Shown here piece by piece: positions 1 through 25,327 of a DNA stretch of 64,000 bases (the stretch's first letter is position 1; each line of letters starts with the position of its first letter). The translations under genes were made by a program, and so were the position numbers. The notes beneath the pieces are model-generated. The model worked only from the letters and a program-made list of their open reading frames with translations, had not been told where the DNA came from and did not search any database. The stretch is from an uncultured Arenicella sp. (GTDB lineage: Bacteria > Pseudomonadota > Gammaproteobacteria > Arenicellales > Arenicellaceae). The stretch spans positions 1 through 64,000 of the forward strand of contig CALINO010000008.1 of assembly GCA_938045295.1 (NCBI GenBank), given 5' to 3'.

Positions 1-2057
<2,057 letters not shown>

Positions 2058-2212
2058 TGCCTACCTCAGATGCTTCTACCATCATATTATTTATAAATTT
2101 TTTTATTGGTATGGGTTACAGCCCACTATCGCTGATAGCAGGCATGAAACCAATTAAACGTTACACTCTTGTTTAATTCCGACGCTCAATTTAGTATCAT
2201 CAGAATATATTC

Positions 2213-2230
2213 GGTAAACGTTTTCCATGG
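2213..2230. promoter_or_regulatory. LacI-type operator in the divergent region
   Basis: The sequence GGTAAACGTTTTCC is a 14-bp palindrome with one mismatch from the perfect GGAAAACGTTTTCC. It lies immediately downstream of the -10 box of the symporter promoter, covering the expected start of transcription, as expected for a repressor site. Two related palindromes occur upstream of the TonB-dependent receptor. The CG-centred symmetry is typical of LacI-family operators. Assignment to the adjacent regulator is inferred. Confidence 0.75.
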
Positions 2231-2386: not shown

Positions 2387-3424
2387 ATGTCTAACAAATT
2401 AGGTATTAAAGAATTAGCGCAACACCTTGATATTTCCATCGCGTCGGTTTCTCGTGCCCTGCACAACCCCAATCGCGTATCCAAAGACATGAGGGAACGA
2501 GTTCAGGCAGCGGCTAAAGAGTTAGGCTATAAACAAAACACATTAGCCAGCAGTTTACGCACCGCAAAAACACGCAATATCGTCGCCATCATTCCCGACT
2601 TGAGCGACACCTTTAATGCCGGCGTCATTCGCTCAATGGAAGATGCTGCGGCCAAGCGTGGCTATTCAATTCTGTTTGGTGATTCTCAAGGTGAGCGCGA
2701 GCGTGAGATTCGATACGGAGAACTCATTCAAGGAAAACGAGCCGACGGTGTTATCTTTTTCTCATCAACGCCACCGTTTCCTGAAGAAACCCTTCAATCT
2801 GATAATTTCACGGTGCCACCGATGGTCAACTCCTGTGAAGTAATGATCGACTCAGGTTATAAAATAAAAGGGCAATCAATACCTTACGTAACCATCAACA
2901 ACATTGAAGCGTCTAAAGAAATTACTGAGCATTTAATACAACAGGGCCATAAGCGAATAGCCGTCATTACTGGTGACCCTTCAACGCCGAGTGTGAAACA
3001 GCGCCTACAAGGGCACATAGAAGCTCAACAAATGGCCGGCATTGAACACTCAAGTTCGCTTGTGTTCGAAGGCGATTACACCATCGAAAGTGGGCAGAAA
3101 TTAGCGCATGACATCTTAAAGCTAAAGCATCGCCCTACTGCAATATTTTGCATGTGCGACGAGAGTGCCATTGGCTGCATGCATACGCTGAAAGAAAATG
3201 GAGTTCGTGTTCCACAAGACATCGCTGTGGCTGGTTTTGATGACATTCGTTTTGCGCAATTCAGCACCCCCACACTCACGACAATTGCTCAACCGGTAGA
3301 AGAAATTGGGCGACGTTGCTCTGAACTTCTTATTGATATAATTGAGAACAAAAGTATTAAAGAGAAACGAGTCGTGCTACCACATAAATTAGTGATCAGA
3401 GAAAGCACTCGAATACCAAATTAG
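2387..3424 (+). CDS. LacI-family transcriptional regulator
   Basis: This 345-residue protein has the usual LacI length and layout: an N-terminal helix-turn-helix (about residues 5-25, IKELAQHLDISIASVSRAL), a hinge region, and a periplasmic-binding-protein-like ligand domain with the late motif AVAGFDDIRFAQFSTPTLTT. LacI members usually repress sugar genes and release DNA on binding a sugar. It is divergent from the SSS symporter/GH1 operon, and three GGAAAACGTTTTCC-like palindromes lie in front of that operon and of the TonB-dependent receptor. I infer it is the local repressor of all three. A cupin-like gene starts 43 bp downstream and probably shares its transcript. The inducer is unknown; glucose, cellobiose or another beta-glucoside is plausible. 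Confidence 0.93.
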   Translation: MSNKLGIKELAQHLDISIASVSRALHNPNRVSKDMRERVQAAAKELGYKQNTLASSLRTAKTRNIVAIIPDLSDTFNAGVIRSMEDAAAKRGYSILFGDSQGEREREIRYGELIQGKRADGVIFFSSTPPFPEETLQSDNFTVPPMVNSCEVMIDSGYKIKGQSIPYVTINNIEASKEITEHLIQQGHKRIAVITGDPSTPSVKQRLQGHIEAQQMAGIEHSSSLVFEGDYTIESGQKLAHDILKLKHRPTAIFCMCDESAIGCMHTLKENGVRVPQDIAVAGFDDIRFAQFSTPTLTTIAQPVEEIGRRCSELLIDIIENKSIKEKRVVLPHKLVIRESTRIPN

Positions 3425-3467: not shown

Positions 3468-4508
3468 ATGACTCACTCAATACCGGAATTCAGTGCTCAG
3501 CAATTTTTAAGTGAGGGCGTTGCCGCCAAGGTTTTCAAGGACAAAAAACCAGTGATCATACGAGACCTAGCGCAACATTGGCCATTGGTTGAGAAAGCAA
3601 AAAAGAACCCAATCACCGCGGCTGACTACCTTATTGCTAACGACAGCCACACGCCAAGCTACTCTATCGTTGGGCACCCCAATATTGATGGGCGCTTCTT
3701 TTATTCAGAAGATTTAACACGCAACAACTTTCAAAGTTTTGACTTGGCGCCAACCGCGGTACTTGAGCAGCTGATAAAATTTTCAGATGCCCCAGCAAAC
3801 CAAGCGCACGCATTATCAATGCAAGCCGGAAATATCAAGACGTCTTTCCCCGATTTAATTGACGAGTTTAAACTGTCAATCCTTGATCACACTATTGAGC
3901 CCAATATTTGGATTAGCAACCGTTCAAGGGTCGCCGCACATTTTGATTTAAACGACAATATTGCTTGCGTGGGTGTGGGCTCTAGAACATTCACCCTGTT
4001 CCCACCTGAGCAAGCTAACAATTTGTACTTAGGGCCAATGCTCAATTCACCAGGCGGCGTACCAACCAGCCTAGTTGATATTAAACACCCAGATTATGAC
4101 GCATTTCCTAACTTTAAAGTTGCGCTAGACAACAGCCTATCGGCAACCTTAGAGGCCGGTGATGCCATTTACATCCCATCTCCTTGGTGGCACGCGGTGG
4201 AATCTCTTGAGGCCATTAATGTCTTAGTCAACTTTTGGTGGAATGACCATATTAGCGAAGCCACACCAACCGCAAACCACGCTCTAATGCTGGCTATTTT
4301 AGCGATTTCTGACATGGATCAAGCACAAAAAGACTCATGGCAAAGTCTGTTTAATTATCTGGTGTTCAAACAGCCGGGGGATGACGATAATTATTTACCG
4401 GAAAGCTTGGATGACATTCTAAATAACCCATCGAAAAAGACTCAACAAGCGTGTGTGAATTTTTTATCTGACCAACTCAACGAACTGAAAAAAGAACCCG
4501 AGTCGTAA
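3468..4508 (+). CDS. JmjC/cupin_8-like Fe(II)-dependent oxygenase, copy 1
   Basis: A 346-residue protein of the cupin-like/JmjC fold. The likely Fe(II) triad is visible as H158-x-D160 (AHFD) and H242 (PWWHAVES), on a double-stranded beta-helix core. Relatives use 2-oxoglutarate and O2 to hydroxylate proteins or small molecules. It has no signal peptide, so it is probably cytoplasmic. It is clearly paralogous to the protein at 6126-7121; both keep FTLFPP, NLYLGP/NLYIGP and the WWH motif. It follows the LacI-type regulator by 43 bp and converges with halogenase 1. Its substrate is unknown. A role together with the halogenases is inferred only from gene position. Confidence 0.82.
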   Translation: MTHSIPEFSAQQFLSEGVAAKVFKDKKPVIIRDLAQHWPLVEKAKKNPITAADYLIANDSHTPSYSIVGHPNIDGRFFYSEDLTRNNFQSFDLAPTAVLEQLIKFSDAPANQAHALSMQAGNIKTSFPDLIDEFKLSILDHTIEPNIWISNRSRVAAHFDLNDNIACVGVGSRTFTLFPPEQANNLYLGPMLNSPGGVPTSLVDIKHPDYDAFPNFKVALDNSLSATLEAGDAIYIPSPWWHAVESLEAINVLVNFWWNDHISEATPTANHALMLAILAISDMDQAQKDSWQSLFNYLVFKQPGDDDNYLPESLDDILNNPSKKTQQACVNFLSDQLNELKKEPES

Positions 4509-4584
4509 AGCCTGGTTCGTTGCTCTACCCCACACTTAAACCGATCCAGCTAACACCCAATAACCCCACTTAAAACAAGCTAAC

Positions 4585-6129
4585 CTAAGCCACGCCTTGC
4601 TTGAGTAACATGCTCGGGCAATAGTGCTTAATAAAGTCGTTGTGTGATGGAAGCTGATTAACCATGTGTTGCGTGTTTTTATCAATCGTTTGCATGAATG
4701 ATTTCAACTCGCTTTCATCCATCATATTAACGATAGGATGATAGTCTCTGGGCTCCAGGCCTTGACCAATCATGACTTGCATCCACGAATTTTCACCAAA
4801 CAATTCTGTCGGCACTTTAAACACTCTGCCGGTTTCTCGGAACAGATCAAGCCGATGGCGTAAGCTATCAGGCACATCCATATTGGCACAAAAGCGCCAA
4901 AACTCGGTGTCTCTGCGATCGGTCACGTGATAGTGCAATACAATGAAATCTCGAATGTTTTCAATTTCAGATGACATTTGCTGATTAAATTCATTGATGT
5001 CGGCGTCAACAATGCCGTGGTGAGGAAACATCTGTACTAAGCGAGTAATTGCACGCTGAATCAAGTGTATGCTGGTGGATTCTAATGGCTCGATAAAGCC
5101 ACTGGACAAACCAATAGCAATGCAATTTTTGTTCCAATGTTTACGCCGAGTTCCGGTAGTAAACTTAATCACCCTTGGGTCGTTTAACGGGGCGCCCTCA
5201 ATATTAGATAACAAGGCACTGACCGCTGCATCATCGTCTAAGTAACGATCACAATACACTAGGCCGTTACCGACCCTTGTCTGCAGTGGAATACGCCACT
5301 GCCAACCCGCATCACGAGCAATTGAACGCGTGTACGGAATGGGGGCTTCAAGAGATTCAGTTTGAACCGCAACCGCAGAATTGCACGGCAACCAATGAGA
5401 CCAATCGTCATAGCCTGTATGCAAAGCCTGCTCAATGAGCAAACCACGAAAACCGGAGCAATCAATGAATAGGTCTCCTTCAACGGTTTCTCCATTAGCC
5501 AGCGTTACGCTTTCAATATTACCGCTGTGTTGATCTAAGTTCACATCAACCACCTTACCTTCAATTCGCGTGGCGCCGTGCTGCTCAGAAAAACCACGCA
5601 AAAATTTGGCGTACAGCCCCGCATCAATATGATAAGCGTAGTTAAGCCCATGTTTCGGTGTAATCGCAAACCGGTTATTTTCAGCCGCCACCAATTCAGC
5701 GCAATATTGACCGAAATCTTTAGCAAACCCTAATTGTTTTGCTCTTAGCCAGAAATGCTGAAAACCGGCGGCCCAACAGTCTTTACCGGTATCACCGAAT
5801 GAGTGAATGTAATCTTCTTCACGGTCTTTCCATGACTCGAATGAAATACCAAGCTTGAAGGTGCCATTCACCGCACTGACAAACTCTTGCTCGTTAATCC
5901 CAATTAATTGGTGCAAGCTCATTAATGTCGGAATGGTTGCTTCACCAACCCCTACCGTTGGAATATCGTCAGACTCAATCAAACGAACATTAAGCGTCTT
6001 ACCCAATGTTTTCGATAATGTGGCGGCCGACATCCAGCCAGCAGTGCCACCACCAACAATCACGATATTATGAATTTTAGACATTTCTTTGGAATTTAAA
6101 CTCATCGGCTTCTCAGATTGTTGGTTCAT
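4585..6129 (-). CDS. Flavin-dependent (tryptophan-type) halogenase, copy 1
   Basis: A 514-residue member of the tryptophan halogenase family. Visible features are the FAD-binding GGGTAG (26-31), the conserved VGVGEATIP (about 59-67), a lysine in GTFKLGI (K92) matching the catalytic Lys of PrnA/RebH, the family signature WQWRIP (276-281), and a Glu-Ser pair in PLESTSI (E350-S351) matching the PrnA Glu/Ser. These enzymes use FADH2, O2 and halide to make HOCl or HOBr, which a lysine delivers to an aromatic ring. With all key residues present it should be active. Relatives in receptor/SapC clusters (for example BrvH of Brevundimonas) brominate indole in vitro; natural substrates are unknown. No flavin reductase gene is nearby. 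Its start overlaps the previous gene by 4 nt. Confidence 0.9.
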   Translation of the reverse strand: MNQQSEKPMSLNSKEMSKIHNIVIVGGGTAGWMSAATLSKTLGKTLNVRLIESDDIPTVGVGEATIPTLMSLHQLIGINEQEFVSAVNGTFKLGISFESWKDREEDYIHSFGDTGKDCWAAGFQHFWLRAKQLGFAKDFGQYCAELVAAENNRFAITPKHGLNYAYHIDAGLYAKFLRGFSEQHGATRIEGKVVDVNLDQHSGNIESVTLANGETVEGDLFIDCSGFRGLLIEQALHTGYDDWSHWLPCNSAVAVQTESLEAPIPYTRSIARDAGWQWRIPLQTRVGNGLVYCDRYLDDDAAVSALLSNIEGAPLNDPRVIKFTTGTRRKHWNKNCIAIGLSSGFIEPLESTSIHLIQRAITRLVQMFPHHGIVDADINEFNQQMSSEIENIRDFIVLHYHVTDRRDTEFWRFCANMDVPDSLRHRLDLFRETGRVFKVPTELFGENSWMQVMIGQGLEPRDYHPIVNMMDESELKSFMQTIDKNTQHMVNQLPSHNDFIKHYCPSMLLKQGVA

Positions 6130-7121
6130 TGTTTTAACATGTCGCGCAACCCGCTCTTAATACTGCGTGCGGTTTGCTCGTCCATAGCACTGTAAAGCTT
6201 TTTAAGCGATTCAGGCAAATGCGAGATACTTTGCTCGTCGCGCTCGAAAACGAAATGTTGAAATAAATTTCCCCACACTTTTCGCTGTTCTTCTGGCAAC
6301 TGATTAAAGCTTAACAAGGCATGGTAAAGCGCGGCCAGTGGCGAGCCTAGGTATGCGGGTGTTTGCCGCCACCAATAATTAACCAGCACATTTAACGTAC
6401 CCAAAGATTCAACGCTGTGCCACCACATACTTGGAATAAACAACGCATCTCCAGCCTCCAGCTCAAACACTAAAGCGACTTCTTGCGCTTTTCGATACTT
6501 TGGAAACTTATCATAATCAGGCTTACGCACATCCACCAAACTAATGGGTTGGCCTGAAGGGGTAAGATCCATCGGGCCTATGTATAAGTTTTCCAACTGA
6601 TCGGGCGGAAATAAGGTAAAACGGCGGCGCCCAGCCACCACACAAGCCAAGTTACTGGGGAAATCAAAGTGTGGTGCAATTACGCTCTGATTGCCCAACC
6701 AGACACTATTCAGACACTCTAAACCACGCATATCAAGCGCATTAGCTTGCTCAAAGTTAGGCAACCAATGCTTGATCGCCGTGGAACCGACGTATTGTGT
6801 CAGCCCGCTCGCCGGCGTCAATAGTTGCTGTAACACTTGATCCAGTGGTTTTCTAAGACGCTGAAAATTAAAATCACTGAAGTCGTCGTTATAAAATATA
6901 CGCCCATCGGCACTTAAAGGCGCTTCATACACCGTAACCGGTGCCCCTTGATAAAAACTTAATAAATAATCAGACACATGCTTATCTGACAATGCGCTAT
7001 TGCGAACCACCGGCCACTCAGACACTAAACCTTTAAAAACTTGAGGTTCAGTAGCCTCTAAGCACACTTCAGGCAGGCTGGGTAGAGAAGCACCTTGATC
7101 AGTAGCACAGGTTTTATCCAT
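6126..7121 (-). CDS. JmjC/cupin_8-like Fe(II)-dependent oxygenase, copy 2
   Basis: A 331-residue paralogue of the protein at 3468-4508. Likely metal ligands are H151 and D153 (PHFD) and H235 (MWWHSVES). The central region (FTLFPPDQLENLYIGP, then SLVDVRKPDYDKFP) is closely similar in both copies. No signal peptide is seen. The gene is packed between sapC-like (TAATG overlap at 7121) and halogenase 1 (ATGA overlap at 6126-6129), so all are translated as a unit. Proteins of this type often accompany SapC and halogenases in TonB-receptor loci; the substrate is not known. Two copies on opposite strands flanking halogenase 1 point to a duplication with inversion. Confidence 0.83.
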   Translation of the reverse strand: MDKTCATDQGASLPSLPEVCLEATEPQVFKGLVSEWPVVRNSALSDKHVSDYLLSFYQGAPVTVYEAPLSADGRIFYNDDFSDFNFQRLRKPLDQVLQQLLTPASGLTQYVGSTAIKHWLPNFEQANALDMRGLECLNSVWLGNQSVIAPHFDFPSNLACVVAGRRRFTLFPPDQLENLYIGPMDLTPSGQPISLVDVRKPDYDKFPKYRKAQEVALVFELEAGDALFIPSMWWHSVESLGTLNVLVNYWWRQTPAYLGSPLAALYHALLSFNQLPEEQRKVWGNLFQHFVFERDEQSISHLPESLKKLYSAMDEQTARSIKSGLRDMLKQ

Positions 7122-7879
7122 TACGGTTTAGCTTCCAAAGCCACCTTTTTGTTGATCAAGCCACTCAACGCAGAGTGCGACGCTAACACCATAAACAACG
7201 GCATCAAAAAACCACTCTCTGAGAGCTTGCCTAATACCTCGGCCGATAAGTTTTGCACGGCTTCTTCTTTGACCGTATAAAACCCTAATAATTGTTTCAC
7301 CGAACCGTCGTTCAGTTGAATGTCTAATACAAACTGCTCGATCAAATCATTCTCGATCATGGCAGCAACAAATTTTTCAGAATGCTCGTAGCCATAATGC
7401 ACTTGCTCAAGAACCGATATCTTTTCATTAAAAAATTCAGTCGGCGACCCATCGGCATGAAATAACTCTTTGCCGTTCGCGTGATTAACACGAGGGCTGT
7501 CTGGGTCCATGGTAACAACCATAGAAGAACCATTTGGGTGGCCGTTATCATTTTCACTCGTATCGCTTCCGCTATTGGTGAAACCGATAAAGAACGGCTG
7601 CTTACGTTCCATTAATGGAATATAGCTGGCATTCCAACCAGAGTTATCAAGATACATATTCTCCCCTGGCTCAAACCCCAGCAATGCAACCGGATACAGC
7701 TGGCCAGTGTCTGAGTTTTTTTGAAAAAAGATAGGGTACTGCGACTGAACATCTCGAAACTCAGTAGGAAAGACCATCGTAAAATTTGAGCTTTCGCTCA
7801 ATTCCGGCGAATGGCAATCGAGCACCTTTACCGCGGCGTGATCTTGATGGTTAACCAACACGTGTTGGGGCATAGTCAT
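7121..7879 (-). CDS. SapC family protein
   Basis: A 252-residue protein that I recognise as SapC-like from the N-terminal block (STMVFPTEF-like region, QYPIFF, then PVALLGFEPGENMYLD) and a second block near RKQPFFIGF. The family was named from a Campylobacter S-layer gene region, but its biochemical role is unknown. No catalytic motif, signal peptide or membrane segment is evident. In many Caulobacter, Xanthomonas and marine genomes it lies beside TonB-dependent receptors, flavin halogenases and cupin-like proteins, exactly as here. It starts 5 nt after the end of halogenase 2 with a purine-rich stretch (AAAGGAGATGACT) as ribosome site, and overlaps the next gene by TAATG. Confidence 0.85.
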   Translation of the reverse strand: MTMPQHVLVNHQDHAAVKVLDCHSPELSESSNFTMVFPTEFRDVQSQYPIFFQKNSDTGQLYPVALLGFEPGENMYLDNSGWNASYIPLMERKQPFFIGFTNSGSDTSENDNGHPNGSSMVVTMDPDSPRVNHANGKELFHADGSPTEFFNEKISVLEQVHYGYEHSEKFVAAMIENDLIEQFVLDIQLNDGSVKQLLGFYTVKEEAVQNLSAEVLGKLSESGFLMPLFMVLASHSALSGLINKKVALEAKP

Positions 7880-7884
7880 CTCCT

Positions 7885-9534
7885 TTATAGTTTGGGAAAA
7901 CCATATTGTTTTACTTTGTCAGACAGGGTTCTGTTTTCAGGTAAGACAGACAACCACTTGGCCGACGCTTTTTGGTTTTCACTAAAATAGCCTTTGGCTT
8001 TTGTTTTTAATTTCTCGGCATCACGCCGAAAAGTAATATTAGGTTTAGTTTTAAAATTCATCCCGTACAAGACGTATTGAAAACTGGCGGATGAAAACAG
8101 CTCATCGCTTCTGGGGGTATCATTATGCCACGGCACACGCCCCTCCCATATTGCCAGAGACTCTTGCAATGAGTGAGGTATTGAGTCCGCATTTCGGTTA
8201 GCGGCCCAATACGGTTCATCTCGCTGGCTTAAAACATAATGAAGCTTTAAGAAATTTACTATTTTCTCCCAATGGTACGTCATGTCATCATTAAACTTAT
8301 TGGCGGCGATGTTCAACGCATCCCCTTCCAGCAATATTGCATCAGCAATTGCTTTAGCCGACATTTCGATCAAGATGAGCGCCGACGCTTCTAAAGGCTC
8401 AACAAAACCGGCAGACAATCCAACGGCAACGCAATTTTGGTGCCAGAAACGCGTCAAATACTGAGGAGAGAAACCGATCTTCTTCGGCTCTATTGAGTCG
8501 GCAACGCCTTTAGATGCGGTTGCTTCGATGTACCCACGTAAAGTGTTTAATGCGCCCTCATCGTCACAGAATTGACTGGAGTAAACGTAACCAACCCCTC
8601 GCCGAGAACTTAACCCTATGTCCCACACCCAACCACTTTGTTGTGCAGTGGAGAGTGTGGCAGAAGAAATATTTTGCTGCTGCTCATAATCAATTTGAAC
8701 CGCTAAAGCTCGATCATTAAATAACACCGAGCTCAGATCAACGCTGCCTATTTCATAATGCTGGCGAATTAAATAGCCACCCAGCCCAGTGCAATCAATA
8801 AATAAATCGCCGTGTATCGCCCCAGATGTTTTGGTATGCAGGCTGGTAATATTGCCTTTTTGCGAGCCTTTAGCTTCCGCACAGTTAACACTGGTCACAT
8901 GGTCTCGCAAAAGGCGCACGCCCAATTTTTCTACGCAATGTTTTTTCAGCACCTCTACAAATTTGCCAGCATCCAAGTGGTAACCGTAGTTGAGATTAAA
9001 ACCGAACTCCGGTGTTGAAATTTGCTTTGCTGATAATTGCTGGTCACACACAGCGGCTTGTGGGCTAACCGCTTGAGCAAACGGAACAGACTCACCAAAC
9101 TCATGAAACCATTCAGCCAAATTGATTTCATGAAACCCCGCAGGTGGGGTAAAGGGGTGATAATAATGATGGCCGTCGTTTTTTAGCCACTCTCTAAACA
9201 GAGTGCCTTGCTTTAGGGAGGCATCACAGGATTGAAAAAGTTCAGTTTCAGAAATGCCAATCTCTTGCAATGTTGAACGCATGGTTGGCCATGTGCCTTC
9301 ACCCACACCCACCGGTGGAATGTCTTGCGACTCAATGAGCGTTATATTAATGCCTTGAGCAGCTTTTGAATGGCCCGCTTTCGAATAGCCAGAGTTTGAC
9401 TGCTTGAATGCCGATTGACTGGCTAGAGGTGAACCACCGTCTTGTTCTGTTGCGCTTTTATATCGGCTAGCAAGTACCGCTGCGGTTAACCAACCAGCAG
9501 TACCCCCGCCAACTATAACCACTTCACGAATCAT
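7885..9534 (-). CDS. Flavin-dependent (tryptophan-type) halogenase, copy 2
   Basis: A 549-residue tryptophan-halogenase-family protein. It has GGGTAG (9-14), VGVGEGTWPT (about 76-85), a lysine in SLKQGTLF (K108) at the catalytic position, the WxWxI signature GWVWDI (301-306), and E382 in EPLEASAL. It differs from copy 1 in that the residue after the conserved Glu is Ala (A383) instead of Ser, and there is a Ser/Lys/Gly-rich insertion of about 35 residues (roughly 26-61) between the FAD-binding helix and the second strand. Chemistry should be FADH2-dependent halogenation; the substrate is unknown and probably not the same as that of copy 1. It is first in a run of four coupled genes and lies 193 bp downstream of the receptor gene. 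Confidence 0.87.
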   Translation of the reverse strand: MIREVVIVGGGTAGWLTAAVLASRYKSATEQDGGSPLASQSAFKQSNSGYSKAGHSKAAQGINITLIESQDIPPVGVGEGTWPTMRSTLQEIGISETELFQSCDASLKQGTLFREWLKNDGHHYYHPFTPPAGFHEINLAEWFHEFGESVPFAQAVSPQAAVCDQQLSAKQISTPEFGFNLNYGYHLDAGKFVEVLKKHCVEKLGVRLLRDHVTSVNCAEAKGSQKGNITSLHTKTSGAIHGDLFIDCTGLGGYLIRQHYEIGSVDLSSVLFNDRALAVQIDYEQQQNISSATLSTAQQSGWVWDIGLSSRRGVGYVYSSQFCDDEGALNTLRGYIEATASKGVADSIEPKKIGFSPQYLTRFWHQNCVAVGLSAGFVEPLEASALILIEMSAKAIADAILLEGDALNIAANKFNDDMTYHWEKIVNFLKLHYVLSQRDEPYWAANRNADSIPHSLQESLAIWEGRVPWHNDTPRSDELFSSASFQYVLYGMNFKTKPNITFRRDAEKLKTKAKGYFSENQKASAKWLSVLPENRTLSDKVKQYGFPKL

Positions 9535-9617
9535 AGATACTTGAGTTTTATTGATATTTACTAAAGCTTACACCAACTTGTATAAATATCATTGATATAT
9601 CGTTTAAGTAAACGGAA

Positions 9618-9664
9618 GTTGCCTCTGCATATGAGGAGAGTAACCAATCATGTGCAGAGGCAAC
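9618..9664. other. 12-bp inverted repeat between receptor and halogenase 2
   Basis: GTTGCCTCTGCA (9618-9629) is exactly complementary to TGCAGAGGCAAC (9653-9664) with a 23-nt loop. It lies about 64 nt after the receptor stop and upstream of halogenase 2, with no T-run on either side, so it is not a classical terminator. It may stabilise the receptor mRNA or set different levels for receptor and downstream genes. Confidence 0.55.
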
Positions 9665-9727
9665 CAAAAAGCAAGTTATGGTTTGTTAAATTGGGTAGGA
9701 AAACAAACCAACACTCACTAGGCCAAA

Positions 9728-12583
9728 CTAGAACTCATATCGAGCACCGACGCTGAAACGAGCACCGCTTTGAATAGCATTAATGATTTGCGATCTAGAC
9801 CGACCATACTGAGAAGTGGTTTCATCAGTGATATTAATGCCTTCAAGGAAGACCGTAAGTTGGTCACTTACGATATAACTGGCACGCGCATCCCATTGAC
9901 CATAGGCTTCAGTAAAACGTGGCCCCTGGCCAACATTAGGCTGTGTAGTCTCCTTCAAAAAGTCATCACGCCAGTTGTAAGCAACACGAAATTGCATCTT
10001 TTCATTTTCATAAAAAGCCACTAAATTCGCCGAGTCACTCAAACCTGTGATAACAAATTGCTCTTCAAGACTAAACGTATCGTAAGCCACATCTGCCTCC
10101 ACAATAGTGGCATTTGCCATGACGCCAAAGCCGGTATCGCCAAAGGTTTTCTGTATCGCAATTTCCCAACCATCAACACTAACGGCGTCTTGGTTAATTG
10201 GTGTTTCAACATCAAACACCGCCGCTACGCCCGTAGCCGGGTGGATAAGGTCTGGGAACAACACTTGATCTTGCAGGATGCCAGTACCAATAAAGTTAGA
10301 AACGTCTTTGGTGAAATAACCCACTGAAGCGTAATCGGTGTCGTTGAAATAATACTCTAAAGACAGATCAATATTTTCAGACTCAAACGGCAATAATCCA
10401 GGGTTACCTGACTTACCCGTACCTTCGCCGTTAACGCGAGTTAAGCGGTCAATGGTAAGCCCACCTTGAATGTCTTCAAAGCCAGGGCGTGAAATGGTTT
10501 CACTGTAAGAGAACCTTGCTACTAAGTTATCGGTAATGCTTAACTTAACATCCAAGTTAGGTAGGAACGCATCGTAGTCACCACTGAGCTGAGTAAAATC
10601 GCTCACAGGGTTGCCTTGCGCGTCCACTAATGGATTTACTGGGAACTCGTTGAAGCCCTCTTGCGTAATATTTGCGTACACTGGCACTAATGCTGCTGAG
10701 TCCACATCGGTCTCTTCATAACGAACACCTGCATTTATTTGCAACGGCATGTCGCCGACAGAAAGGTCGCCGGAGTATGAAACGTAAAACGCCGTTGTGT
10801 CTTCGGTGGTACGTCGGTCTGTATCAAACACGCTGCTCGGGCATAGACCATGACCGCAGTCGCCCAGTGTTGAATTGGTAGCACCTAACTCAACGGTTCT
10901 GGCAATTAAATCTTCAATATCAAATTCAAAGAACTGCACCTGTTGACGAGCATCGCCGCCGCCAAATTGATCGAAACGGCCTTCGCCCGTGGCTGGAGTA
11001 AGTAAGTCAGAAATTTGACCACGCTCTGTAGTGCCACCCCAATCATTACGTTGTACTAGCGATGACGCCGAGCGGTTATTCACTTCGGTTAATTGCACGC
11101 CAAAATTAATACGGCTTGAATCTGAAAAATCAAAACCACCGTTCAACGAGGCTTGCGACAATTCCATGCGATCAAAACGGTTATCGAAAGTACTGCCGGT
11201 AACAATAAAGTCATCCGCAGTTGGTGTGTTACGCAAACCTAAATTCAAAATCGGCACATCGCCTTCAATAATCAGTGTAGTACGATCTCGAGTAAATGCA
11301 GATGCGGCTATTTGCGACGCATCTCCAAGTGACGATGCTGGCCGACGTTCGGCCGTTGAATCATGATAATCAAAGTTAAAGCTTAAACGGTCATTAACCT
11401 GCCAATCAATATTTAAACCAAGCGATTCGTTCTCTGTTAAGCGAGCATCTCGCCCTGCTTTTAGCGTGAAATCTTGGCCTTCTAATCTTTCAGTGTAGAC
11501 CGTTGGTGTGGCGATTGAGTTACCATCAAACTGAGTTTCTTGATTGCCAAAGTTAAACCACGCACCGTAATCGGTAAACTCACGATTCACTTCCACTTCG
11601 GAATAGGTGTAATCGGCGGTGGCGCGCACACTTTCTGTGGCTTGCCATTGCAACGTTAACTGACCATTAACTCGGTCTCGAGAAAATTCTCTGAACTGAT
11701 AACCCGCTTGCTGAGGCACGGCATAAATGTCATTTGCACCCGGTCGATTAACTTGATTCGGATCATTCGTGGGTACTGTTCCCCACCCGCCTTCCTGTGC
11801 ACCAGAAAAGGTTCTCCAGCCATTTACATAAGCTTCGTTTTCACCGCTGTCACGCTCTTGCACACTGGCAATAATAGCAACACCAAATTTATCGTCATTA
11901 AAAGTATTACTGTAAATACCTGACAACTCTGGGGTAAAACTGCTGCCTAAATCGGTTGATGTATCATGTACGGCTTTAAACCCGACAACTGATTTTAAGC
12001 CTGGAGATTCTAGTGGCTTGATTGTTTTAACGTTAACGCTAGCGCCAATACCACCACTTGAAATATTAGATCGCCCGGTTTTATACACTTCAACACCGGC
12101 CACGCCTTCAGAGGCAATGTCAGCAAAATCAAAAGAACGACCTTCGTAGGTCGGCATTTGACGCCCGTTTAATGTGACAAGATTAAAGGTAGGCCCCAAA
12201 CCACGAACCGTTACTTGGCTGCCTTCACCGCGACTACGATCAATAGAAACACCGGTAATACGCTGTAAAGACTCGGCTAAGTTTGTATCCGGAAACACCC
12301 CGATGTCTTCCGCAGAAATAGCATCAACAACGCCATCAGAGTTACGCTTAATATCTTGAGAACGCTTTAGACTGCTGCGAATCCCTGTTACCACTACCTC
12401 TTCTAAAGTATCGTTAGCGACAACATTATTATTTTGATCTTGTGCATTGGCGGCTGGAAAAACCGCACCACCAACCATCAAACCAATTGCCAGAGCAACC
12501 GGCTTTGATTTAAACAACACAGGCTGACGAACTTGACGAGCCGATGACTGCACACTCAAGCTCCGATCTATTCTCTCTTTCAT
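9728..12583 (-). CDS. TonB-dependent outer-membrane receptor (Xanthomonas/Caulobacter type)
   Basis: A 951-residue receptor. An extended signal peptide ends near AANA|Q (about residue 47), a TonB-box-like segment LEEVVVTG lies at 60-67, the plug domain follows (DTNLAESLQRITGVSIDRSRG, then VRGLGPTFNLVTLNGR), and a large beta-barrel ends with an aromatic C-terminus (GARYEF). Receptors of this class import oligosaccharides or other large substrates using the proton motive force through TonB. It has two LacI-type palindromes upstream, the same type found in front of the symporter/GH1 operon, so a glucoside or cello-oligosaccharide is a reasonable substrate guess. The halogenase/SapC/cupin genes follow on the same strand. 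There is no SusD partner, as usual for gammaproteobacteria. Confidence 0.95.
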   Translation of the reverse strand: MKERIDRSLSVQSSARQVRQPVLFKSKPVALAIGLMVGGAVFPAANAQDQNNNVVANDTLEEVVVTGIRSSLKRSQDIKRNSDGVVDAISAEDIGVFPDTNLAESLQRITGVSIDRSRGEGSQVTVRGLGPTFNLVTLNGRQMPTYEGRSFDFADIASEGVAGVEVYKTGRSNISSGGIGASVNVKTIKPLESPGLKSVVGFKAVHDTSTDLGSSFTPELSGIYSNTFNDDKFGVAIIASVQERDSGENEAYVNGWRTFSGAQEGGWGTVPTNDPNQVNRPGANDIYAVPQQAGYQFREFSRDRVNGQLTLQWQATESVRATADYTYSEVEVNREFTDYGAWFNFGNQETQFDGNSIATPTVYTERLEGQDFTLKAGRDARLTENESLGLNIDWQVNDRLSFNFDYHDSTAERRPASSLGDASQIAASAFTRDRTTLIIEGDVPILNLGLRNTPTADDFIVTGSTFDNRFDRMELSQASLNGGFDFSDSSRINFGVQLTEVNNRSASSLVQRNDWGGTTERGQISDLLTPATGEGRFDQFGGGDARQQVQFFEFDIEDLIARTVELGATNSTLGDCGHGLCPSSVFDTDRRTTEDTTAFYVSYSGDLSVGDMPLQINAGVRYEETDVDSAALVPVYANITQEGFNEFPVNPLVDAQGNPVSDFTQLSGDYDAFLPNLDVKLSITDNLVARFSYSETISRPGFEDIQGGLTIDRLTRVNGEGTGKSGNPGLLPFESENIDLSLEYYFNDTDYASVGYFTKDVSNFIGTGILQDQVLFPDLIHPATGVAAVFDVETPINQDAVSVDGWEIAIQKTFGDTGFGVMANATIVEADVAYDTFSLEEQFVITGLSDSANLVAFYENEKMQFRVAYNWRDDFLKETTQPNVGQGPRFTEAYGQWDARASYIVSDQLTVFLEGINITDETTSQYGRSRSQIINAIQSGARFSVGARYEF

Positions 12584-12642: not shown

Positions 12643-12658
12643 TGGAAAACGTTTTCCA
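12643..12658. promoter_or_regulatory. LacI-type operator, perfect 16-bp palindrome
   Basis: TGGAAAACGTTTTCCA is a perfect palindrome 60 bp upstream of the receptor start codon. It matches the site at 2213-2230. A possible -10 box (TATATT, minus strand, 12675-12670) lies just upstream of it, so a bound repressor would block initiation. This supports a shared LacI-family regulon. Confidence 0.8.
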
Positions 12659-12755: not shown

Positions 12756-12771
12756 TGGCAAACGTTTTCCA
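12756..12771. promoter_or_regulatory. LacI-type operator, second copy upstream of receptor
   Basis: TGGCAAACGTTTTCCA differs from the perfect palindrome at 12643-12658 by one base. The two centres are 113 bp apart, which would allow looping by a tetrameric LacI-type protein, though tetramerisation is not shown by the sequence. It lies between the divergent-free ends of the receptor promoter and the AraC-type gene terminus. Confidence 0.7.
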
Positions 12772-14085: not shown

Positions 14086-14631
14086 CTACATATTATGTGC
14101 CGCTTTTGTTTTATCATTTTGTAAATAGCTTAAGCAATCGGCAACAACGTCTTGCAACGACGGGTCTACTGAAACAAGTTTGGTATTGGCTTCATTATCC
14201 GGAACTTGCATGGCCTCGAACTGGCTCGTAAGCAAAGAAGGCGGCATGAAGTGCCCTTTACGACTTTTCATGCGCTGTTCAATAGTGTCGATATCTCCAT
14301 ACAAGAATAAGCTTTTAACACTGGCTGGCAACTGAGCAAGCTGTTGGCGGTGTTGTTTGCGCAAGCCAGAAAATGAGAGAACTGTTTTTTTACCTTGGCT
14401 AATCTGCTGCTTTAAATAGTGGCAAATATCATTCACCCAAGGAATACGCATCTCATCGGTTAACGGTTTGTTGCTTGCCATTCGTTGTTTGTTCTCTTGA
14501 GAATGAAAGTCATCACCTTCAACAAACTCATAATCAAGATGCTGAGCTATAGCACGAGCAACGCTGGATTTTCCACTGCCACTGACGCCCATTACAATAA
14601 CCACGTGTGCCTGATTCTCGCGCATACTCAC
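14086..14631 (-). CDS. gntK: Gluconokinase
   Basis: A 181-residue P-loop kinase with GVSGSGKSS near residue 15-23, the gluconokinase motif EGDDFH, and the following NKQRMASNKPLTDEMRIPW block typical of GntK/IdnK. It phosphorylates gluconate to 6-phosphogluconate with ATP, feeding the pentose phosphate and Entner-Doudoroff routes. The length fits the family. It overlaps the GH94 gene by 4 nt (ATGA). That pairing makes sense if the GH94 enzyme releases gluconate from cellobionate: the kinase then captures the product. No gluconate permease is beside it, supporting an internal source of gluconate. Confidence 0.93.
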   Translation of the reverse strand: MSMRENQAHVVIVMGVSGSGKSSVARAIAQHLDYEFVEGDDFHSQENKQRMASNKPLTDEMRIPWVNDICHYLKQQISQGKKTVLSFSGLRKQHRQQLAQLPASVKSLFLYGDIDTIEQRMKSRKGHFMPPSLLTSQFEAMQVPDNEANTKLVSVDPSLQDVVADCLSYLQNDKTKAAHNM

Positions 14632-17003
14632 GGCACCAAAACTTTCACGTTGTAAGACCGTTGGTCTTCAACATTACCGAGAACAGGCTCATCCAACAGC
14701 ACACCATCAACAAACACTTGAGTGCCGTCAACGCTGGAGTCTCGAGCTACTGAAAGGTGAATCTCTGCACCTCTGAATCGCCTAAGTGCCGTAAAGTCAC
14801 TCCAACTGGCGGGCAATTGAGGCTTAATCATCAAGCCAGCTCTGCAGCCTTTCAAACCCAGCAAGCCATCAATAATTGAACGCAGTACCCAATGCACCGT
14901 GCCGGTATTAAACAACTGGCTAGATCGGCCTGCGGTACGAGGGTGTTGACGAAAAGCGCCTCGATAGTAATTCGGCACAAACACCGGCAGTTGTTGGCGT
15001 TGTAAAAGGTCGGATTCATCTGGGCCCGGAATCATCTGCCGCAGAACAGTAAATGCTTTATCAACTCGGCCAGAGGCAAACAATGCGTACGCATAGAAAG
15101 CAGAAGCATGATTGTAAATTGAACCATTTTCCGCAGAACCCGGAAACTTTTGCGTTATGCGGCCAACATCTTCACGCATTTGAGTATAAGCCGGCGACAG
15201 CATTTCAACGCCATAATGAGTTTCTAAATTGTCGTGAACCGCTTGCAACAATTTAGTTTCGCGCTCGTTATCAGCGGCGCCACTTAACATGGCCCAAGAC
15301 TGAGGGTTAAGAAATATTTTTCCTTCAGGGTCACTTTCAACCCCAAACACATTACCGTCATCGGTAATGCCTCGCGCGTAGCGGTCGTTCGACCAGCAAT
15401 GTAAGTTAACCGCTTCATTGCATGCTTTGGATATATCGACAAAGCGTTGCGCTTGTTCAGCCTTATCAAACTCAGTACAAACACCAGACCAAACCTTGCA
15501 GGCATAGGCTAATGCCAACGTCAGCCAGGCTGAAACCCCCTTACCTTTATAACCCACCATATTCATAGGGTCATTCCAGTCACCCTGCGCAATATAATTC
15601 AGGCCTCGGTCATCTTGCTGCTCGAACAACCAAGCCAACGCCTTAGAGATGCGAGAGAAAACAGAATCTTCACCACCCTCATCTCCCGGGTAAGGCAGAA
15701 CTTGGCTCAATATTGCATAATCCCCTGTTTCATCAAGGTACGCACTGAGTGCAATGGGCAACCAAACGCAATGGTCCATGTGCGGCACTTGATTGATGTA
15801 TTTTAACTCTGCGGTTTCATCGATAATGATACCGTCAGGCATGGAGCCGTCTTTGTTCTGTTGTGACAACGCCAACAGGAATGACTCTTTAGCCTTATCT
15901 GGGTTTAGATAAGACATCCCCATGTGGTCTTGCAGAAAATTACGCGTTTGCGGGTCTGTGGTCAGACGATTAACATCACCATGATAAAAAATTTGCCGCC
16001 CTAACCAGTGGTTAATGAACGCATTAAAATGTTGATCAGGGGTGTGTACTTCAATCGGCAGGCGAATACGTGAAACTGATTCGTGATAACGAGCCTTTAA
16101 CTCGTCAAACGCATTCGGCTTTGAGAATATCTCTTTGCGAATATCATGAATCTCGTTAGTGTCTTTAGCGGCACCAAATGCGAATCGCAACGCTAACGGT
16201 TCACAGGGCTCTATAACGACACGATAATGCATGGCGGCCGTCGGTGTTTCGTACTCCGAACTGGAGTCTGAAAGAAACCCTCGCTTCACCCCATCGGGCG
16301 ATGTTAAGCCGCCCTCACCTTCAAATGCCGATTGCCGAGCTTCCCACGTTTTAGGCGCAGTTTCGGCGAGCAAAAAACTATTATCTTTAAAATTTGAATT
16401 ACGAAAGTAATCTTCAACTTTTTGATAAGGCGTAATTGATGTTGCCACAATCGCGGTTAAATCATCGTCGTAGCTTGCCGCTTGATTCATCCACGACATA
16501 TAACCAAAAGGAAAGTATGGAAAGATATCTAAAGCCACATTCCTTTTACCGTGGTTAGTGACTGTCAATTGCCACATTTCCACCGGGCGGCTGGGGTGCA
16601 AATTCAAACTAAGATTAAACAGCAAATCGCCTTTACGTACTTGCCATGATATTTCGGATGCCGATGCGGTAAAAGTAAATTCACTGGCTTCGGCACGGGC
16701 AGGTTCATGCGGAATTGAATATATTGAGCCACTCTTTAGTTCGCGCACATAAAAAAAACGCCCCGGGTGATGAGCATAATAATTTTGCTCAGGCTGCATG
16801 AACGACTTCGCCTCCATATTGGGGGCGTGAGCATACTTCGCTGGCTCGGGCTGGATAAATTGAGCTGTCGCAAACCCTCGGCATGTCATTTGCAGCATCA
16901 TGCATGCATTCCACAAAAATGCACTGGCGTTCGGCATCGCGGTCGGGGAATGTAAACTAACAGCCCCTGAATCAGAGTAAGAAACCAAGGCATCTGTACT
17001 CAT
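14628..17003 (-). CDS. GH94 glycoside phosphorylase, probable cellobionic acid phosphorylase
   Basis: A 791-residue GH94 protein: N-terminal beta-sandwich (about 1-310), then an (alpha/alpha)6 barrel with the catalytic-acid motif GDWND (474-478) and a late GSAENGSIYNH segment. Cellobiose, chitobiose and cellobionic acid phosphorylases share this fold. Three points favour cellobionic acid: the length, close to 790 residues; R615 and K619 four residues apart just before GSAENG, matching as I recall the Arg/Lys pair that holds the gluconate carboxylate in the Saccharophagus enzyme; and the adjacent gluconokinase. The reaction would be cellobionate plus phosphate to glucose-1-phosphate plus gluconate, in the cytoplasm. 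No signal peptide is seen. Cellobiose phosphorylase is the main alternative. Confidence 0.82.
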   Translation of the reverse strand: MSTDALVSYSDSGAVSLHSPTAMPNASAFLWNACMMLQMTCRGFATAQFIQPEPAKYAHAPNMEAKSFMQPEQNYYAHHPGRFFYVRELKSGSIYSIPHEPARAEASEFTFTASASEISWQVRKGDLLFNLSLNLHPSRPVEMWQLTVTNHGKRNVALDIFPYFPFGYMSWMNQAASYDDDLTAIVATSITPYQKVEDYFRNSNFKDNSFLLAETAPKTWEARQSAFEGEGGLTSPDGVKRGFLSDSSSEYETPTAAMHYRVVIEPCEPLALRFAFGAAKDTNEIHDIRKEIFSKPNAFDELKARYHESVSRIRLPIEVHTPDQHFNAFINHWLGRQIFYHGDVNRLTTDPQTRNFLQDHMGMSYLNPDKAKESFLLALSQQNKDGSMPDGIIIDETAELKYINQVPHMDHCVWLPIALSAYLDETGDYAILSQVLPYPGDEGGEDSVFSRISKALAWLFEQQDDRGLNYIAQGDWNDPMNMVGYKGKGVSAWLTLALAYACKVWSGVCTEFDKAEQAQRFVDISKACNEAVNLHCWSNDRYARGITDDGNVFGVESDPEGKIFLNPQSWAMLSGAADNERETKLLQAVHDNLETHYGVEMLSPAYTQMREDVGRITQKFPGSAENGSIYNHASAFYAYALFASGRVDKAFTVLRQMIPGPDESDLLQRQQLPVFVPNYYRGAFRQHPRTAGRSSQLFNTGTVHWVLRSIIDGLLGLKGCRAGLMIKPQLPASWSDFTALRRFRGAEIHLSVARDSSVDGTQVFVDGVLLDEPVLGNVEDQRSYNVKVLVP

Positions 17004-18532: not shown

Positions 18533-18555
18533 CATAACAAAACACCGCTGGTGTT
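18533..18555 (-). terminator. Candidate terminator of thiamine operon
   Basis: On the minus strand AACACC-AGC-GGTGTT forms a 6-bp stem with a 3-nt loop, followed by TTGTTATG. It starts at the thiD stop codon (18556-18554). The stem is short and the T-run is broken, so confidence is moderate. Confidence 0.45.
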
Positions 18556-19363
18556 AAATATCGTGTTTTAGCGGCCCGTTGCCTGAACCTAAGTTCAATT
18601 GAGCCGCAATAGCCCGAGTCAGGTATTGTTTTGCATTGGCGGTCGCTTCCAACAAATCCTGATCTAAAGATAGGTTTGCTGTGATTGCAGCCGATAAAGT
18701 ACACCCGGTTCCATGAGTGTTGTTACTTGTAATGCGCTTGCCAGATAGGCGGTGATATTTATTATCACTAAAGAGTATGTCGGTTGGCTCACCATTTAAA
18801 TGGCCGCCTTTACTCAAAATAGCCGCGTTATAACCCACTTGCTTGCCTAGCTCCGCTGCCAACGCAGCCGTGGCATTCTCAAGCTCATCAATATTGACAA
18901 TGGCCGTTGTATTTACCCCCATGAAATTCAATAGGCGTATCAACTCATCCACATTCGGGGTAATCACACTGACCAACGGCACCAGCTTTTCTAATAAATC
19001 GGCAATGGCATTCTCAGCCAATAATGGCCGCCCACTGGAACTTGCCAGCACCGGGTCAAGCACGACATTACTTGCTGGATAAGCACGCAATTGAGTTGCC
19101 ACCGCAGTCACAATGTCGGCGTTATCAAGCATGCCGATTTTGACTGCATTGGGGGGAATATCACTGAGCACGGCGTTCAATTGCTGCTCAACCGTAGCGG
19201 CTGGCACCGAATGAACATGAGAAACACCTAAGGTATTTTGTGCGGTAATGGCGGTGATCACACTCATGCCATACACCTTATGCGCGGCAAATGTTTTTAA
19301 ATCGGCCTGAATACCCGCGCCACCAGAAGAGTCTGAACCGGCAATACTCAAACAGGTTTTCAT
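18554..19363 (-). CDS. thiD: Hydroxymethylpyrimidine (phosphate) kinase ThiD
   Basis: A 269-residue ribokinase-fold protein starting with the typical CLSIAGSDSSGGAGIQADLKTF and ending with the anion-hole motif region NTHGTGCTLSAAITANL. ThiD phosphorylates HMP to HMP-P and then HMP-PP, the pyrimidine substrate for ThiE. The length matches the family. It is the last gene of the leftward thi operon and overlaps thiF by 4 nt (ATGA). A candidate terminator begins at its stop codon. Confidence 0.96.
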   Translation of the reverse strand: MKTCLSIAGSDSSGGAGIQADLKTFAAHKVYGMSVITAITAQNTLGVSHVHSVPAATVEQQLNAVLSDIPPNAVKIGMLDNADIVTAVATQLRAYPASNVVLDPVLASSSGRPLLAENAIADLLEKLVPLVSVITPNVDELIRLLNFMGVNTTAIVNIDELENATAALAAELGKQVGYNAAILSKGGHLNGEPTDILFSDNKYHRLSGKRITSNNTHGTGCTLSAAITANLSLDQDLLEATANAKQYLTRAIAAQLNLGSGNGPLKHDI

Positions 19364-20346: not shown

Positions 20347-20377
20347 GGCGTTAGTGTGGGTGAATTACATCAACAGG

Positions 20378-21001
20378 TTACGTCAAGCTAAGCCATTCAC
20401 TCAAGCGTTGTTCTGGGCTTTCGTTGAGTAACACGTCGGTGACCACACAAATACTGTCGGCGCCGGCCTCATAAACGGCTGGGGCGCGTTCAATATTAAG
20501 CCCTCCGATCGCCACCAACGGCACATCGCCCACCATTTGCTTCCATTCACGCACTTTATCCACCCCTTGAGGCGCCCATTTCATGGCCTTCAAAATTGTA
20601 TGGTACACCGGCCCAAGCGCAACGTATTCAGGCTTTACGGCTAATGCGGTTTTTAACTCAGCTTGGTCGTGAGTGCTAACACCGAGCTTTAAACCATGCC
20701 TGCGAATGGCGGCTAAATCCGCGTCGACTAAGTCTTCTTGGCCCAAATGAACGAAGTCGCAACCGGCGTCTATGGCTTGTTGCCAATAATCGTTGATTAC
20801 TAACTGGCAGCCGTATTCATCGCACAGGGCTTTGCTGGCCGATATGTGTGCTTTAACCGTATTTAATGGCTGGTCTTTCATTCGCAACTGAACCAGCTTT
20901 AAGCCCAACGGTAATAAGCGCTCAAGCCAATCGGCACTATCAACAATTTGATAAAATTTTGGCAATTGAAATGCGGTGGATGACATAGCGCTGTTGTTCA
21001 T
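20378..21001 (-). CDS. thiE: Thiamine phosphate synthase
   Basis: A TIM-barrel protein of about 207 residues, with VQLRMKD near the N-terminus, the HLGQEDL block, [10 protein letters not shown], and the motif [17 protein letters not shown] followed by VAIGGL. It joins HMP-PP with thiazole phosphate to form thiamine phosphate. I choose the ATG at 21001, which overlaps the thiG stop as ATGA; a TTG three codons upstream (21010) is possible but less likely. The TKT-type residues in the phosphate loop read TILK, a small departure from the common form, but the rest of the domain is intact. Confidence 0.94.
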
Positions 21002-21867: not shown

Positions 21868-21875
21868 TGCTTGCT

Positions 21876-22073
21876 CTACCCGCCCTGCATGGGCGCAACC
21901 ACTTCTACTTTACAGCCTTCGATCAACACCGTATCGGCACGCTGGTCTTTAGCCACAAAATGTTGATTAAACGCCGTGGCCACCAATAGGGCTTCATAAC
22001 CCTGCTCTACCAATAAATCGGCCAAGTTGGCTTGCTGGGTCTCAATCGTTTGACCATTAAGAATGATTTGCAT
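21876..22073 (-). CDS. thiS: Sulfur carrier protein ThiS
   Basis: A 65-residue ubiquitin-like protein beginning MQIILNGQ and ending in the diagnostic Gly-Gly (APMQGG). The C-terminal glycine is adenylated by ThiF and converted to the thiocarboxylate that gives sulfur to ThiG. The ATG at 22073 is chosen because GAGG lies 6 nt upstream; a longer form starting at 22088 would add five residues. The gene overlaps thiO by 17 nt. Confidence 0.94.
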
Positions 22074-23079: not shown

Positions 23080-23084
23080 TGTTT

Positions 23085-25327
<2,243 letters not shown>

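Follow-up and report, generated by a model that had tools for sequence, protein, structure and literature searches.

A cassette of halogenase, SapC and cupin genes beside a TonB-dependent receptor: a possible unit for the modification of exported proteins

Genes and features of the locus

The window analysed here, a stretch of 64,000 nucleotides from an uncultured Arenicella sp. (contig CALINO010000008.1), contains at positions 3468-12583 a gene cluster that is confirmed as real, with its catalytic motifs intact; one Cupin_8 gene lies on the plus strand, and the genes for a flavin-dependent halogenase (FDH1), a second Cupin_8 protein, SapC, a second halogenase (FDH2) and a TIGR01782 TonB-dependent receptor lie on the minus strand. 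The respective positions are 4585..6129 for FDH1 (514 aa), 6126..7121 for cupin 2 (331 aa), 7121..7879 for SapC (252 aa), 7885..9534 for FDH2 (549 aa) and 9728..12583 for the receptor (951 aa). The tight coupling described in the first-pass annotation holds for the four genes from FDH1 to FDH2 (a 4-nt overlap of FDH1 and cupin 2, a 1-nt overlap of cupin 2 and SapC, a gap of 5 nt between SapC and FDH2), but not for the receptor, which is separated from FDH2 by 193 nt, nor for cupin 1 (3468..4508, plus strand; 346 aa), which lies on the strand opposite to the cassette, 43 nt behind a LacI-family gene (2387..3424, plus strand; LacI and Peripla_BP_3 domains). The latter has a divergent operator region in common with the gene for an SSF sodium:solute symporter (210..2057, minus strand), assigned by domain match.

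FDH1 and FDH2 match PF04820 (Trp_halogenase) with 639.2 bits (5.1e-192) and 360.7 bits (1.6e-107), respectively, the curated cut-off being 21, and both contain GxGxxG, the catalytic lysine and glutamate, and the GWxWxI motif (K92, E347 and GWxWxIP in FDH1; K108 and E379 in FDH2). K92 and K108, named as catalytic lysines in the first reading of the DNA, fall into a single alignment column; among 163 aligned halogenases the catalytic Lys and the catalytic Glu are each kept in 162, the G and W in all 163. The best PDB match of FDH1 is 6y1w (Xcc4156; E 1.4e-200), aligned to residues 16 to 506 with one short gap, and 6frl (BrvH), like Xcc4156 an indole-type flavin halogenase, is matched as well (8e-136); the catalytic motifs are common to all three. 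The best PDB match of FDH2, aligned over its whole length, is 2pyx (E 3.8e-140), a tryptophan halogenase by its PDB title; an insertion of about 24 residues, between 28 and 60, sets FDH2 apart from it. Both proteins are thus predicted to be flavin-dependent halogenases of the BrvH/Xcc4156 type; short substrate loops and an open site are reported for 6y1w (PMC7336383).

Both cupins match Pfam Cupin_8 (8.6e-57 for cupin 1, 1.5e-65 for cupin 2), and the HxD...H metal triad is invariant across 32 aligned sequences that include the two; in cupin 2, the invariant residues are H151, D153, H235 and R166. Arg166 occupies a putative 2-oxoglutarate-binding position, presumably the place where FIH has the lysine that binds 2-oxoglutarate. 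The PDB matches of cupin 1 are the protein hydroxylases FIH and JMJD5 (best E 2.4e-14), which share HxD...H, with FIH presumably differing at the place of Arg166. In agreement with their first description as Fe(II)-type JmjC/cupin proteins, both are predicted to be Fe(II)/2-oxoglutarate-dependent Cupin_8 oxygenases with the metal triad.

The assignments of SapC and of the receptor were also borne out. SapC scores 199.8 bits with PF07277 (cut-off 28.9; 5.8e-59); a fold search with its AF2 model (pLDDT 94.5) returned no match among PDB structures, so that the fold gives no function for the protein. The same family includes SapC from the S-layer loci of Campylobacter fetus, whereas the SapC of the window is tied to halogenase genes and to a TonB receptor. 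The receptor scores 649.8 bits with TIGR01782 (TonB-Xanth-Caul; cut-off 310), and its AF2 model (pLDDT 85.3) matches PDB TonB receptors; it is therefore predicted to be a TIGR01782 TonB-dependent receptor. The closest solved folds are mainly siderophore and heme receptors, as expected of most TonB receptors.

Three putative LacI-type operators were located, CGGTAAACGTTTTCCA (2212..2227) in the stretch that separates the SSF symporter gene from the LacI gene, and TGGAAAACGTTTTCCA (12643..12658) and TGGCAAACGTTTTCCA (12756..12771) upstream of the receptor. This specific operator occurs above chance level; the generic LacI pattern WGNNANCGNTNNCW, also tried, occurs at chance level and was rejected. 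Operators of the specific type connect the receptor with the SSF symporter, the LacI-cupin genes and one further receptor that lies outside the window, to which extent the suggested regulation in common with glucoside genes stands, but none was found at the GH94/MFS block. The gap between receptor and FDH2 (9535..9727, minus strand) encodes a strong RNA hairpin (-61.2 kcal/mol, z -8.4). In homologous gaps of 40-350 nt, z is -2 or lower in 43 of 53, versus 8 of 61 control pieces, with z-scores based on plain base shuffles and controls taken from coding pieces.

Recurrence and sugar context of the cassette

From at least 591 FDH1-anchored loci the best 80 were analysed, with gene calls from custom HMMs and mechanical ORFs; 67 of these 80 have at least 7 kb of upstream DNA. 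Of the 67, 46 show the full order TBDR-FDH2-SapC-Cupin-FDH1 and 62 have a receptor upstream of FDH1; the coupled genes of the cassette are spaced by 30 nt or less in 56/61, 52/65 and 39/52 cases. The cassette is found across alpha-, beta- and gammaproteobacteria, and since the same gene order recurs in distant bacteria, its conservation is far beyond chance. A second cupin gene on the opposite strand past FDH1, as in the window, occurs in 3 of the 67 loci and in L074, L075 and L082.

The loci were also searched starting from the receptor. In a search of 274 genomes (five and three receptor candidates scored per genome), cassette genes lie beside all eight receptors not at contig ends; in 398 genomes (two candidates per genome; G000 and G012 are counted in both searches), they accompany 40 of 53 receptors, 39 of these with a halogenase, and the other 13 have no cassette within regions of about 18 kb. 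One receptor without cassette (L257) lies in a locus resembling a full glucan locus, and one locus (G652) has receptor and cupin and no PF04820 match. Of the 31 halogenases (>200 bits) of five genomes, 27 are no more than about 9 kb away from a TIGR01782 receptor above cut-off, and 17 of 40 such receptors are clustered with a halogenase, at up to 12 kb. In same-genus comparisons (excluding L079 and G143:C27), the best halogenase and the best receptor of the other genome share a locus in 37 of 46 cases, a partner fidelity which linked inheritance alone would be enough to give. By tree order, halogenases adjoin at least five receptor lineages with different sugar genes, clade statements on receptors being drawn from the order of the leaves and from two support values; this makes a sugar-specific small molecule unlikely as substrate.

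The flanks of 65 loci resemble the laminarin/beta-glucan utilisation loci of Proteobacteria, with which they share GH3, GH16, GH1, MFS_2, LacI and a TonB receptor: GH3 is present in 27, GH16 in 21, GH1 in at least 10 (more may lie past the ends of the truncated flanks) and LacI-family genes in 31, the window included. Starch-type and sugar-acid-type loci, too, have related halogenases next to their receptors. In contrast to laminarin/beta-glucan loci, the halogenase cassette is added, and the window has a GH94 gene (14628-17003) as the only glycosidase-family gene and no GH1, GH3 or GH16 among the 39 of 43 ORFs of at least 150 aa scanned (all but those starting at 20378, 29395, 37679 and 41228); nor do these 39 include an NRPS/siderophore synthetase, RiPP synthetase or lanthipeptide gene. 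The GH1 enzyme of the first-pass annotation is therefore not among them, whereas the suggested tie of the cassette to sugar uptake is supported, for beta-glucosides/glucans, by the flanks and the LacI-type operators.

Of 19 loci with a SapC paralogue and no halogenase, hand-picked among 51 matches, 14 contain an ORF of at least 1300 aa and the other 5 have none over 1300 aa, compared to 2/20, 3/49 and 5/80 in control loci not matched for GC. As spurious long ORFs can arise at high GC, the nine loci with GC of at most 0.57 were also counted separately, and five of them contain such an ORF. Export proteins were seen near such paralogues (OEP and HlyD in L101, HlyD in L095), but not at halogenase-linked SapC.

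Receptor residues and the presence of the cassette

When alignment columns of 102 linked and 13 orphan receptors were compared, no residue was found to track the cassette cleanly. Fifteen columns differ, of which 14 fail at least one of two test cases, a linked receptor close to the orphans (L187) and an orphan nested among linked receptors (L231). F790 alone agrees in both and comes nearest to tracking the cassette, albeit with an imperfect fit (F in 89% of linked receptors; W in 11 orphans, Y in one, F in one), and may serve as a lead for a cassette-linked residue. Six conserved Trp columns are all kept in 13 of 13 orphans. At thresholds of 90%/40%, no column separates loci with two halogenases from those with one, and only Q602 separates loci with SapC from those without.

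Other candidates were rejected. W342 at first appeared to mark the cassette (95% of 79 linked versus 32% of 22 unlinked receptors), but the tree shows a clade effect, orphans of the same clade retaining W342. R866 and N870 likewise seemed to mark it, each being replaced in 10 of 13 orphans, but the nested orphan L231 keeps both; outside the clade, unlinked receptors keep R866 in 21 of 21 and N870 in 11 of 21. As no residue cleanly follows the cassette, the receptor as substrate stays a proposal.

Possible clients of the cassette

Relatives of the cluster had been said to be known around BrvH; this is true of a second halogenase gene, which lies upstream of brvH as well (PMC5945002), but SapC, cupin and TonB do not occur in the main text of that paper, nor SapC and TonB in the main text on Xcc4156 (PMC7336383). 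The accessible text of PMC8269204 is likewise free of the three terms, that of PMC11337851 reports a halogenase among ocean transcripts and describes no such operon, and our literature search found no paper describing the TBDR-FDH2-SapC-Cupin-FDH1 operon. A natural substrate is named for neither BrvH nor Xcc4156 in the main texts; the authors of the latter propose larger, possibly peptide, substrates (PMC7336383), and the open site of BrvH was compared by its authors with MibH (PMC5945002). MibH is a peptide tryptophan halogenase with a large peptide substrate from a lanthipeptide pathway, from which the window differs by having no lanthipeptide gene in the ORFs scanned.

Of the explanations considered, the most likely is that the cassette serves, in the cytosol, to modify a protein destined for export, with the receptor as its client. 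That it is a conserved protein-modification unit tied to a beta-glucan/beta-glucoside receptor, and that this receptor itself is modified, we propose tentatively, at somewhat less than an even chance; a little less probable still is the fuller proposal that residues of the TonB receptor or another exported surface protein are both halogenated and hydroxylated before export, with SapC as escort, and that this is the natural job of BrvH-type halogenases. With sugar present, LacI would leave its operators, and receptor and enzymes would be made, the hairpin keeping the amounts of the enzymes below that of the receptor; SapC may hold the receptor precursor, still unfolded, in the cytosol, where the halogenases, with FADH2, and the cupins, with Fe(II) and 2-oxoglutarate, could halogenate or hydroxylate chosen residues before export. 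The active site is open in solved relatives of FDH1 (PMC7336383, PMC5945002). That a surface or receptor protein is modified was one of two ideas put forward initially; it fits better than the other because the halogenases are associated with receptor type and very large ORFs are frequent in the vicinity of SapC paralogues, although no residue of the receptor tracks the cassette cleanly. The search for the natural substrate of BrvH/Xcc4156-type halogenases is narrowed to exported proteins of sugar-uptake loci by this recurring operon, in which SapC and a JmjC-like cupin accompany a glucan receptor in three classes of Proteobacteria; if the proposal is true, there would be a new halogen-based protein modification in the bacterial envelope, tied to sugar uptake, and a role for SapC.

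Against the receptor as client stand the lack of a cleanly tracking residue, the 13 of 53 receptors with no cassette nearby and the fact that linked inheritance could suffice. The first two, and the large ORFs adjoining SapC paralogues, would also be accounted for if the client were another exported protein or peptide (a secreted glucanase, TonB or another surface protein) and the receptor were linked via shared regulation only. This is unlikely, since the recurring neighbour is the receptor (62 of 67 loci), with GH16 in 21 and GH3 in 27 of 65 flanks, and since cassette gaps of mostly 30 nt or less leave no room inside for a precursor-peptide gene. The second initial idea was halogenation of an aglycone freed by GH1; more generally, the substrate could be a free aromatic small molecule, either a glucoside aglycone or some other aromatic that enters the cell along with the sugar. 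The loci are indeed beta-glucoside/glucan loci, yet related ones are of the GH3/GH16 glucan type, and glucans, to our knowledge, have no aromatic aglycone. The lack of GH1 in the ORFs scanned and the occurrence of related halogenases in starch-type and sugar-acid-type loci speak against an aglycone, and a small-molecule substrate, which leaves SapC unexplained, is improbable; BrvH does brominate free indole, but the low activity made its authors question whether indole is its substrate in nature (PMC5945002).

Two further alternatives are more remote than these. The cassette might make or process a halogenated siderophore-like metabolite imported by the receptor, as jumonji-like enzymes were reportedly linked to halogenated siderophores in a 2010 NAR article; the closest receptor folds are in keeping with this, though expected of most TonB receptors, whereas the flanks consist of sugar genes with LacI-type operators and the scanned ORFs include no NRPS or siderophore synthetase, which makes it the least probable explanation of all. 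Hardly more probable is that the halogenases produce hypohalous acid or serve to consume reduced flavin, or that the cassette masks the receptor from phages or bacteriocins that would enter through it. Surface receptors are common phage entry points, and a masking function would agree with a cassette that is not always present beside the receptor; the recurring gene order and the cupins, however, suggest a defined substrate.

Genes, operators and the gap hairpin

All genes claimed for positions 3468-12583 in the first-pass annotation are present as open reading frames with domain matches or, for the receptor, a profile match: a Cupin_8 protein on the forward strand (3468-4508) and, on the reverse strand, the flavin-dependent halogenase FDH1 (4585-6129), a second Cupin_8 protein (6126-7121), SapC (7121-7879), the second halogenase FDH2 (7885-9534) and a TonB-dependent receptor (TBDR) of TIGR01782 (9728-12583). 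The catalytic lysines named there, K92 (FDH1) and K108 (FDH2), share one alignment column, with Lys in 162 of 163 halogenases; in the same alignment, a Glu is kept in 162/163 and GW in 163/163. Both window cupins carry an HxD...H triad, invariant across 32 aligned sequences. The close packing described for the group stood in part: FDH1, cupin, SapC and FDH2 form a tightly coupled run, but the receptor is 193 nt apart, and the hairpin in this gap (9535-9727) is strong, at -61.2 kcal/mol (z -8.4). Homologous gaps reach z <= -2 in 43 of 53 cases versus 8 of 61 coding control pieces (plain base shuffles); the hairpin perhaps sets receptor versus enzyme amounts.

Matches to the LacI-type pattern TGGNAAACGTTTNCCA lie upstream of the receptor (12643, 12756) and between SSF symporter and LacI-cupin genes (2212); at up to two mismatches these three window sites compare with 0.53 expected, three being reached in 2 of 100 shuffles. 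At up to one mismatch, the whole genome holds four sites and the backwards-read control pattern one; the fourth site, on contig C8 (C8:102391), lies about 40 nt ahead of the probable start of another receptor that has no cassette. This second TIGR01782 receptor, outside the window (L196, 6544-9444; G000:C8:99543-102443), has the same operator near its start. The GH94/MFS_2 block (14-18 kb) lacks a TGGNAAACGTTTNCCA site.

Recurrence beside receptors

A search started from 11 aligned FDH1 sequences gave at least 591 loci, the best 80 of which span alpha-, beta- and gammaproteobacteria. Among the 67 of these 80 with at least 7 kb upstream, a TIGR01782-like receptor stands upstream of FDH1 in 62 (all save L118, L145, L148, L178 and L186) and the full order TBDR-FDH2-SapC-Cupin-FDH1 occurs in 46; median intergenic gaps in FDH1-anchored loci are -4 nt (SapC-Cupin), 7 nt (Cupin-FDH1) and 8.5 nt (FDH2-SapC). 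Of the 31 halogenases scoring >200 bits in five genomes searched in full, 27 have a TIGR01782 receptor above cut-off no more than about 9 kb away; the four without one are G143:C27, two in G167, and G256:C3:339108, directly downstream of what its sequence suggests is a TonB receptor of another kind. Seen from the receptor, 17 of the 40 TIGR01782 receptors above cut-off in these genomes share a cluster (up to 12 kb) with a halogenase.

Among 274 gammaproteobacterial genomes, receptor alignment A4 (three candidates scored per genome) picked out 10 receptors in 6; two of these receptors lie at contig ends, and all 8 others are near a halogenase. A wider search (two candidates scored per genome) gave 53 receptors in 36 of 398 Pseudomonadota genomes; three were already known and linked. 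For the remaining 50, 49 loci were fetched: cassette genes are present in 37 (a halogenase in 36) and absent from 12, which together carry 13 receptors. In two congeneric genomes, three consecutive halogenase genes follow a single receptor (L072 8133-12901; L073 6313-11001), and an FDH1-type halogenase stands right behind an apparent TonB receptor of another family in L079 (5516-9602).

Candidate clients of the cassette

We tentatively favour reading the cassette as a cytosolic modification unit that would have the receptor as its client. Large or peptide substrates are suggested in passages of the structural papers on the FDH1 relatives Xcc4156 (PMC7336383) and BrvH (PMC5945002). Within one genus, halogenase and receptor stay with the same partner in 37 of 46 comparisons; linked inheritance would give the same result. 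In the leaf order of the tree, receptors linked to a halogenase fall into at least five lineages. Orphans here are receptors lacking cassette genes in the DNA fetched; most of those in the main clade of 116 receptors sit close to the base, where linked L187 is also placed, and orphan L231 is nested. All 13 orphans retain the six Trp columns. Fifteen other columns distinguish 102 linked from 13 orphan receptors (85%/35% thresholds); the linked residue is found at 11/15 in L187 and at 13/15 in L231, and F790 is the only column that tracks linkage in both. Residue 790 is Phe in 89% of linked receptors and Trp in 11/13 orphans. No receptor column tells loci with one halogenase from those with two, and Q602 is the only one that sets SapC apart from no-SapC loci. 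From these comparisons, the receptor as substrate would seem strong in linkage and weak at residue level. Five genomes whose receptor is unlinked or accompanied only by a cupin were searched for halogenases; four of them (G579, G621, G549, G553) have some elsewhere, so action in trans is possible. G652 gave no PF04820 match in the genome search; in its locus L225 (4744-8864) the receptor is followed by a cupin.

That another exported protein is the client is a possible, lesser reading. The SapC family, PF07277, has 51 matches in 40 of 274 gammaproteobacterial genomes, and 19 of 20 fetched regions chosen by SapC lack a halogenase as judged by a purpose-built HMM. Of these 19, 14 have an ORF of >=1300 aa, against 2/20, 3/49 and 5/80 in controls that are not GC-matched; among the nine of the 19 whose GC is 0.57 or less, 5 have one. 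OEP and HlyD (L101) or HlyD (L095) lie near halogenase-free SapC, and three giant proteins from SapC regions gave no informative match in a Pfam scan, so the connection between SapC and the export of surface proteins is suggestive. The structure model of SapC is confident (pLDDT 94.5) and has no match among solved structures (best Foldseek E 0.032; Z >= 2 in 0/995 chains). Action on a small molecule is unlikely; its earlier form, halogenation of an aromatic aglycone freed by GH1, fared badly, as the sugar context and the lack of GH1 in the 39 of 43 window ORFs scanned, where GH94 is present, argue against it. Protection or redox roles appear improbable, and siderophores slightly more so; part of the probability is given to none of these readings.

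All parts of the cassette belong to known families. An open-access literature search found no paper on these gene combinations and, for halogenase plus TonB receptor, nothing on this operon in the portions of text covered. A 2010 article on jumonji-like enzymes reportedly may mention such neighbourhoods. As the BrvH paper also has a gene-cluster figure, its main text naming none of SapC, cupin and TonB (PMC5945002), we make no claim to first sight of the operon; what the cassette does is a testable question.

Sugar context and neighbouring genes

The commonest families flanking 65 SapC-containing loci are LacI (31), GH3 (27), GH16 (21), MFS_2 (14), DUF6445 (11), MFS_1 (10), GH1 (10) and SSF (7), all lower bounds because the flanks are cut; the names come from clusters in which one member was scanned against Pfam, except SSF, which was named by reading only. 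This is a beta-glucan profile. Of the halogenase-receptor pairs elsewhere in the same genome, that on contig C42 lies by amylase/glucoamylase-like and that on C32 by sugar-acid-type genes (functions read from sequences); the pair on C90, at a contig end, adjoins no catabolic gene. In the window, thiamine synthesis genes (ThiC, ThiG, ThiF-like, kinase; 18554-25013) come after the sugar genes. A DUF6445 gene lies within or beside the cassette in 11/65 loci (e.g. L143 11548-12273 and relatives) and is possibly a further member of the system. A carbamoyltransferase and a TPR protein adjoin the cassette in L082 (3039-6988), and a second protein that looks similar occurs in L145 (11580-13622).
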